Assembly (NCBI RefSeq): GCF_002252625.1
Contig: NZ_NQKW01000006.1
Span: 62,001-126,000 of the forward strand
DNA: 64,000 nucleotides
Direction: 5' to 3'
DNA from: Synechococcus sp. 1G10
GTDB lineage: Bacteria; Cyanobacteriota; Cyanobacteriia; PCC-6307; Cyanobiaceae
Positions 62,921-64,000 of this stretch are shown in pieces. The first letter of the stretch is position 1. Every line of letters begins with the position of its first letter. The position numbers were made by a program, and so were the translations under genes. The notes beneath the pieces were generated by a model. It made no database searches. It had not been told where the DNA came from and was given only the letters and a program-made list of their open reading frames with translations.

Positions 62921-62965
62921 ATCGGCCCCGAAGCTCAGAAATCGGCCCCGAAGCTCAGAAATCGG
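62921..62965. repeat. 20-base tandem repeat after cobJ
   Basis: Two identical copies of ATCGGCCCCGAAGCTCAGAA run at 62921-62940 and 62941-62960, then the first five bases of a third copy (62961-62965). It lies in the spacer between cobJ and the chimeric ORF. Confidence 0.9.
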
Positions 62966-63159
62966 GATGACAGGATTGGATCGCCTTGTCATAGAGCTAG
63001 ACCTAGAAGTACCACCTGAGGGTGATACCTGAGATCCGTGAAAGCTCCTCTTAGAAACATACACCAAGCGAGTGATCAGTCAACCCTGCTACCTCCTGGT
63101 GGTAAGGGAGGCGTATCGCAGGCAAGGGGTGGCGCATCGGCGCTCCGAAGTTGAAGCGC
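62966..63159. other. Gene-poor spacer after cobJ
   Basis: Lower-GC sequence than the neighbours, with no supported gene, tRNA or clear terminator. Together with the preceding tandem repeat and the following chimeric ORF, it looks like a decayed or recombined region. Confidence 0.5.
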
Positions 63160-63438
63160 TCAAGCCATGTCGTCCAGGAATTTCGATCCCACCCCGCCAC
63201 TGCTGATCTGCAGGTGATCCCGTGCTCGGGTGCAGGCCACATAGAGCAGATGCCGTTCGGCGGCATAAACCTCATCCAGGTCGCAGTCGTCGGTGATCGC
63301 TTCGATCCTTGAAGGGCTTGGGATCACGTCCTCGTCGCAGGCCATCACAGCCACGGCACGGAACACCGGCTCCAGCAGCCGCCACACCCCCGGCCAGTCG
63401 GCGGGCTCAAACGGGCGGATCTTCAACGGAGATGTCAT
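63160..63438 (-). pseudogene. Chimeric remnant: GNAT acetyltransferase start joined to UvrD-type helicase end
   Basis: A 92-residue ORF of two unrelated parts. Residues 1-25 (SPLKIRPFEPADWPGVWRLL) look like the first strand and helix of a GNAT acetyltransferase. From residue 26 it reads FRAVAVMACDEDVIPSPSRI and then ERHLLYVACTRARDHLQISS, the C-terminal motif V/VI region of a UvrD/Rep-type helicase. Neither domain is complete: the acetyl-CoA site and all helicase motifs I-IV are absent. The junction falls on the codons FRA at 63355-63363. It is best read as a deletion scar, perhaps still translated. Confidence 0.65.
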
Positions 63439-63491
63439 TGGTCGGTCACGGACCGGATCCCTACATTGACCACCAGAGATCTTTGCCCATT

Positions 63492-64000
63492 GATGCGCAT
63501 CCTTGGTGTTCTTCACCCATCTGGTCTTCTGTCGTCCACGGCAGCTGCTCTGACGGTCGTGCTGCCGCTGTACGGGGTTGGTGGGGCCCAGGCCAGCCCG
63601 CCGGCAGAAGCCACCCCTACACCAGCCGCGACGCTGTTCGAGAACGTGCGCATCTTCAATGGCACCTCTCCTCAGCTTTCACCTGCCTCCAACGTGCTGG
63701 TGGTCGGGTCCACGATACGAACGATCTCAACCGCCCCGATCTCTCCGCCTTCCGGCTCGGCGCTCACCCGCGTCGCCGGCAACGGCCGGGTGCTGATGCC
63801 AGGCCTGATCGACAACCACGTGCACCTGCTGATGAGCGCCAGCAGTCAACGCGACCTGGTTGACCCCAAGATGCCCCTGGCCCTGCTGCAGGAGCGCGCC
63901 ACCGCCGAGGCCGGCGCCACCTTGATGCGCGGCTTCACCAGCGTTCGTGATCTGGGTGGCCCGATGCTGGAGGCGCGGCCTGCCATCGATCGCGGCAGAC
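63492..64000 (+). CDS. Exported amidohydrolase-family protein, 5' part
   Basis: The visible 169 residues begin with a signal peptide-like segment (LLSSTAAALTVVLPLYGVGGAQA). Next comes a composite-domain strand LFENVRIFNGTS and the metal motif GLIDNHVHLLMSA (HxH), typical of the imidazolonepropionase/Xaa-Pro-dipeptidase-like amidohydrolases. RGFTSVRDLGGPM follows. The window ends before the remaining metal ligands, so the substrate cannot be judged. ATG 63492 is the most likely start. Confidence 0.82.

Follow-up and report, generated by a model that had tools for sequence, protein, structure and literature searches.

Near one end of a 64,000-nucleotide stretch of the Synechococcus sp. 1G10 genome (contig NZ_NQKW01000006.1, positions 62,001 to 126,000 of the forward strand, hereafter the window), a short open reading frame (ORF) begins like a GNAT acetyltransferase and ends like a UvrD-type helicase. 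This locus raises the question of whether two genes have been joined there, by which route this may have occurred, and whether the product is a gene in use or a remnant.

Two sources of a 92-codon ORF

Read on the minus strand from 63438 to 63160, the ORF encodes MTSPLKIRPFEPADWPGVWRLLEPVFRAVAVMACDEDVIPSPSRIEAITDDCDLDEVYAAERHLLYVACTRARDHLQISSGGVGSKFLDDMA, and a GTG at 63516 provides an earlier possible start in the same frame. The initial annotation had described it as a GNAT/UvrD chimera, and comparison with both parent families bore this out, since its 92 codons and stop are matched by two sources. The chimera is real, and consists of a GNAT head from picocyanobacteria joined to the tail of a UvrD-type helicase. 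In the 92-residue protein, Pfam UvrD_C was found at residues 26-79 (E 4.4e-5; 23.5 bits, just below the curated cut-off of 25.6) and the PHROG 1967 profile, 'DNA helicase', at residues 26-81 (E 3.2e-9), indicating that the C-terminal helicase motif region is present in the fusion; the LLYVACTRARDHL segment is presumably the last helicase motif. The helicase similarity predicted to follow residue 26 was clear, UvrD-type tails matching residues 26-92. No GNAT model reported the 28-residue head in the profile searches, and this half therefore rests on direct comparison. Nine DNA matches, all ending at 63351-63358, came from eight GNAT loci, including a locus of the same genome, and head residues 1-28 showed 86% amino-acid identity to one copy each in genomes G004 and G007. 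Tail residues 26-92 are 85-86% identical to G108 and 72% to the G001 helicase. The nearest tail, that of G108, is carried by a 3,779-base contig of an uncultured Cyanobium (CALFOF010000232.1; 400 family genomes, among the best 80 of 540 relatives).

Table 1. Features of the chimeric ORF and of the island that carries it. Positions are those of the window; contig-equivalent positions lie beyond its end.
Feature	Position	Strand	Evidence or remark
Two full 20-bp repeat units	62921..62960		host side of island boundary, between cobJ and island
Conserved distal terminus	62960..63088		85% identical over 130 positions to G279 island terminus
Left island boundary, 16-bp copy of tRNA-Pro gene 3' end, TCGGGATGACAGGATT	62962..62977		sequence match
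Island, 10,265 bp	window 62962 to contig-equivalent 73226 (L145:1963-12227); in-window part 62962..64000		empty site in 8/8 other genus genomes
Chimeric ORF, GNAT head and UvrD tail	63160..63438	minus	92 codons and stop; comparison with both parent families
Helicase-derived tail, residues 26-92 and stop, containing LLYVACTRARDHL	63160..63363	minus	profile and protein matches
11-base joint GTTCCGTGCCG	63354..63364	minus	aligned parents; shared-word count; C or T at one place
GNAT-derived head, residues 1-28	63355..63438	minus	DNA and amino-acid matches to GNAT loci
Amidohydrolase gene, island cargo	63466..64911 (in window 63466..64000, 5' part)	plus	Pfam Amidohydro_1 E 9.9e-38
Esterase-like hydrolase	contig-equivalent 64911-65966		island cargo
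Small-terminase gene	contig-equivalent 66474-67067		phrog_6299 E 2.2e-21
987-residue replication-like ORF	contig-equivalent 68414-71377		weak ResIII match, E 0.0024
Ribbon-helix-helix-like ORF	contig-equivalent 71395-71913		E 0.00088, below cut-off
Integrase-like ORF, 405 aa, adjoining tRNA	contig-equivalent 71910-73127		phrog_1 E 0.0022
tRNA-Pro(CGG) gene	contig-equivalent 73226-73300		3' end at island junction
Second copy of TCGGGATGACAGGATT	contig-equivalent 73227-73242, beyond window		10,265 bp from first copy

Used as a query, the 92-residue protein gave matches at E 0.001 or better in eight of the nine genus genomes, its own included. One of them, G001, encodes an intact helicase of 691 residues, the last 67 of which match fusion residues 26-92 at 72%. 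The N-terminal part was matched in six other genus genomes (G003 to G008) and at a second place in the genome itself, with GNAT-type ORFs of 171 residues in G003, G004 and G005. In these comparisons, the two halves match different intact gene families that occur within the same bacterial family. In the wider survey, 90 of the 400 family genomes had some match to the fusion protein, and among the best 80 of 540 relatives two loci matching from residues 7 and 18 turned out to be helicases without a GNAT head. The initial annotation had named conserved full-length orthologues in many genomes as a finding that would speak against a chimera; none was recovered beyond the genome itself, as residues 1-92 were matched across in one of the 400 family genomes by protein search and the junction pattern was found in one of 379 order genomes, these sets (400, 380 and 379 genomes) being samples from larger groups. 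The junction pattern was absent from IMG/VR, where relatives of the fusion (23 loci on 23 contigs) are all helicase tails covering residues 26-92.

The UvrD-type helicases of PHROG 1967 thus resemble the fusion as the source of its residues 26-92, but only 67 of 691 residues are retained. The intact helicase is matched by the PADLOC models NERD+UvrD and GajB (E 2e-26 at best, with the protein of G001), and its N-terminus is weakly RelE-like (HigB-like toxin, E 0.0059, below cut-off).

Broken helicase or GNAT-family copies were also noticed elsewhere, with internal gaps or an internal stop (L203:6373-9590, L204:11138-14703, L016:5213-5439 and L018:4229-4732). In the helicase frame at L123:3846-4082, the stretch just before the conserved AKGLEFRAV is joined in frame to an earlier part of the protein, which looks like an internal deletion near that point, unless the assembly is at fault there. 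At L202:4222-13735, a ResIII ORF and an N6_N4 methylase ORF precede the helicase in one direction, like a restriction operon.

A genomic island at tRNA-Pro(CGG)

The surroundings of the ORF correspond to a genomic island (Table 1). A direct repeat of the tRNA 3' end (16 bp) bounds it and the site is empty in all eight relatives, two traits of tRNA-site islands. With its end repeat, its empty sites and an integrase-like gene beside the tRNA, the element is a tRNA-site genomic island by plan. In the eight other genus genomes examined, cobJ (a name taken from the initial annotation, made from sequence only) runs straight into tRNA-Pro(CGG), the sequence found at 73227. No gene lies between the two in any of these genomes, and the GNAT and UvrD genes that were to be sought beside each other between cobJ and the amidohydrolase gene did not materialize. 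The CobJ protein is present in 9/9 genus genomes, with 85-98% identity in the other eight. The amidohydrolase, whose proposed identity was confirmed by Pfam Amidohydro_1, was detected at E 1e-30 in one of the nine genus genomes and in 3 of 380 family genomes, its own included in the latter. The chimera is the outermost ORF of the island and, among the cargo, lies closest to the conserved terminus; it arrived with, or arose in, the integrated island.

The call of an integrase is not secure on sequence grounds: the phrog_1 match is weak, Pfam gave no match at E 0.01, and a Thr may occupy the position of the usual catalytic His. If R250, T347, R350, H373 and Y382 are taken as the catalytic positions, four of them (R250, R350, H373 and Y382) are invariant in the four aligned proteins, but T347 stands where the first His of HxxR would be expected. 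The predicted structure of the integrase-like ORF is a weak model.

A tandem repeat adjacent to the ORF had been regarded as a sign of local instability at the joint. The repeat does exist at 62921-62965 (2.2 copies of a 20-bp unit, 100% match). It is, however, separated from the ORF by about 195 bp and sits outside the island boundary, towards the chromosome, where G005 and G006 have one diverged 20-bp unit. This host-side duplication says nothing on the GNAT/helicase joint, and a role in the fusion mechanism was rejected because its full units lie outside the island carrying the ORF.

The joint and the origin of the fusion

When the DNA of both parent families was aligned at the joint, GNAT relatives typically read GAGCCGGTGTTCCGCGCCGG, helicase relatives CTGGAGTTCCGYGCSGT and the window GTGTTCCGTGCCGTGGCT, the word GTTCCG[C/T]GCCG being common to the two families. 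The switch from one parent to the other lies inside GTTCCGTGCCG, because the preceding base follows the GNAT side and the following base the helicase side. The 'three-codon match' of the initial annotation thus stood as a shared word, its length being refined to 11 bases. Shared words were compared between six GNAT and four helicase genes, giving 24 proxy pairs in which some copies end short of the stop. The junction word was recovered with 10-11 bases in 10 of the 24 pairs, being the longest or joint-longest shared word in nine; in the other 14 it did not appear among the shared words of at least 9 bases. All ten pairs involve two of the four helicase genes, G001 or G267; in G108, the nearest tail, one base departs from the GNAT word. 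Codon-shuffled pairs (60 shuffles each) had a mean of 0.5-1.0 shared words of at least 11 bases and, by our own arithmetic, two breakpoints placed at random would both land in a word of this kind in roughly one case out of 10^5. A joining through the match is therefore supported, with the caution that the pairs are proxies and not the true parents.

A shared word at the joint, in a draft genome of 84 contigs, is also what a misjoining of two contigs by the assembler would leave. In that case, however, the missing halves should turn up at other places of this genome, whose completeness is rated at 99.9%, and they were not found. The first 623 helicase residues are absent from the assembly except for a distant UvrD relative (27% identity), and the other GNAT-family places consist of one copy with an internal TAA and a second copy split in two, with a TGA in one of its parts. 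In addition, the joint is located inside a 178-kb contig, and its 11 bases are far below the usual assembly word size, assembly words being usually far longer. A misjoining is thus extremely improbable, and the fusion is most likely not an assembly product.

Our preferred interpretation, which we hold with good though incomplete confidence, is that the ORF is a remnant fusion produced by short-homology illegitimate recombination, most likely without enzymatic function, and carried as island cargo. Illegitimate recombination would have joined, in frame and within the 11-base word, the first 28 GNAT codons to the last 67 helicase codons, probably in one step, through breakage or replication slippage. 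The joining may have happened within the island cargo rather than before its capture. Today the fusion is the cargo ORF lying furthest out in the 10.3-kb island that occupies the 3' end of tRNA-Pro(CGG). According to excerpts of PMC2884548, short-homology-dependent illegitimate recombination and replication slippage between short repeats are described in bacteria, and a threshold of 30 bp is quoted for RecA-dependent recombination. The 11-base joint word, being under this threshold, resembles the cases described in those excerpts, but the two genes fused in frame here are unrelated to each other. Among the literature titles screened, none concerned this fusion or this island.

The initial annotation had suggested a deletion between two genes through a short match. 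The short shared word was indeed found at the joint, so that the core of this proposal stands, whereas a pair of neighbouring genes at this site is not borne out by the eight other genus genomes. A deletion between two neighbouring genes of the same direction is a plausible route, as the simplest form of the event, and G242 does have a GNAT gene upstream of the helicase gene in the same direction, the only such case among the genomes compared, with 11.4 kb and restriction-type genes between them. No close GNAT-helicase neighbours in the required order were found among the matches in the 400-genome family survey. A further candidate, G343 C53:11376, was dropped as a GNAT gene near a helicase, the locus being a helicase fragment. 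BLAST comparison of the ORF surroundings with the GNAT and helicase loci gave matches at chance level (best E 0.31 to 0.72), and by eye the upstream regions of the ORF and of the parent loci are unlike. Since the flanks are at chance level, they do not fix the direction and size of a deletion. The event could instead have involved two separate molecules, for example the chromosome of the host cell and an island or phage genome that had entered it. The scarcity of close neighbours would agree with such an exchange, as would the fact that the outer flank of neither parent is recognisable beside the ORF, that the helicase-tail relatives occur on 23 IMG/VR contigs, and that in G242 the helicase stands behind restriction-type genes. 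Deletion on a single molecule is nevertheless simpler and the G242 arrangement offers a precedent for its gene order, so that we consider recombination between two molecules rather unlikely, but a serious candidate.

Whatever its route of formation, the fusion retains only residues 1-28 of the acetyltransferase and lacks the Acetyltransf core (best Acetyltransf_1 stretch in the intact G004 relative, 39-138). It likewise lacks the helicase ATP-binding domain, as the UvrD-helicase match in G001 begins at residue 237 and the tail at residue 625. Enzymatic function is most likely absent because both the GNAT core and the ATP-binding domain are missing. Divergence of the tail from G108 is mostly synonymous (dN 0.075, dS 0.84); this analysis and the residue counts covered only tails that matched without gaps, 103 in number and representing 97 distinct proteins. 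Four tail residues are unseen in the 97 distinct helicase tails, and as many were counted in 2/97 intact tails by leave-one-out. At well-conserved positions the fusion shows two departures, while two or more occur in 4/97 intact tails; T60A and E86K affect near-invariant positions. These counts lean to relaxed constraint, the signs of decay being weak and not decisive.

If the fusion were a young functional gene, its small product would work through the helicase tail, either as the partner of a helicase or as a dominant-negative piece of one. The open frame, the in-frame joint, the low dN/dS of the tail against G108 and a G+C content of 0.75 at third codon positions versus 0.46 at second positions all go in this direction. 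However, a frame open to the helicase's own stop and mostly silent divergence are expected if the fusion is recent, equally if its product is kept, and a low dN/dS is as expected of a tail that would have belonged to a working helicase until recently. Moreover, the ORF is restricted to one genome (1/400 by protein, 1/379 by junction pattern), which has no intact helicase of the tail's family, and T60A and E86K speak against a conserved role. Its single-sequence fold is also weak (mean pLDDT 61.9, pTM 0.41, all helix), although a model made with no alignment is weak evidence either way. We therefore regard a functional gene as improbable. As a remnant, the fusion provides a clean example of an in-frame gene joining at an 11-base match, and of how an annotation may gain a 'GNAT' or a 'UvrD' gene that is neither.

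Related islands and known element types

The island has defined ends, sites that are empty in relatives, and a related element in a different genus; for follow-up on picocyanobacterial mobile DNA it is a more useful observation than the fusion itself. Relatives of the integrase-like ORF were found in 5 of the 400 family genomes, its own included, and all five lie beside tRNA-Pro(CGG), the G285 copy being in fragments. In G279, the integrase is 84% identical and a far-end copy of the tRNA tail is located 16,864 bp away; no second tRNA-tail copy was found in the stretch examined of G176, G318 and G285. Among the cargo of the G279 island is an HsdR protein, and neither the GNAT nor the helicase family of the fusion is represented there. 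Just past the far end of this island (L193:7897-19901 and L194), a second integrase fragment at L194:5030-5284 suggests a tandem remnant.

The 987-residue ORF has relatives in 13 of the 400 family genomes, its own included. Three are 67-69% identical (L197, L198 and L199). In two of these a tRNA-Val(TAC) is found at a distance of about 2 kb, and in L197 a tmRNA, which may be unrelated, at 7.1 kb. A small-terminase relative is found downstream of the 987-residue-ORF relative in two of the three (L197 and L199). Going by these placements, island modules seem to be exchanged between elements. One could imagine an undescribed satellite-like family in picocyanobacteria, in which one integrase type would be fixed on tRNA-Pro(CGG), replication and cargo modules would be exchangeable, and cargo genes would be broken and joined at the distal end, the chimera being a by-product. 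This proposal is speculative and we regard it as doubtful.

A small-terminase or packaging gene and a large replication-like ORF are traits of satellites. The island carries both, as tycheposons and phage satellites would, the packaging gene, a satellite or tycheposon trait, being a terminase small subunit (phrog_6299, E 2.2e-21). It differs from them in its 987-residue ORF, for which no match was found among 50,697 phage records or in IMG/VR, where neither relatives of this replication-like ORF (peptide-pattern scan) nor of the integrase or the small terminase were detected. In its plan the island does not differ from the Islander-type tRNA-targeted islands outlined in excerpts of PMC4383910, with an integrase-like gene by an intact tRNA gene, a displaced 3' tRNA fragment at the far end and an empty site in relatives, although known profiles give its integrase-like protein a low score (phrog_1, E 0.0022). 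For tycheposons, a size of 4-200 kb is quoted in excerpts of PMC11389934 and PMC10872708, and the island lies near the low end of this range with 10,265 bp. It shares with the tycheposons and phage satellites of these excerpts the tRNA site, the integrase-like gene and the variable cargo.
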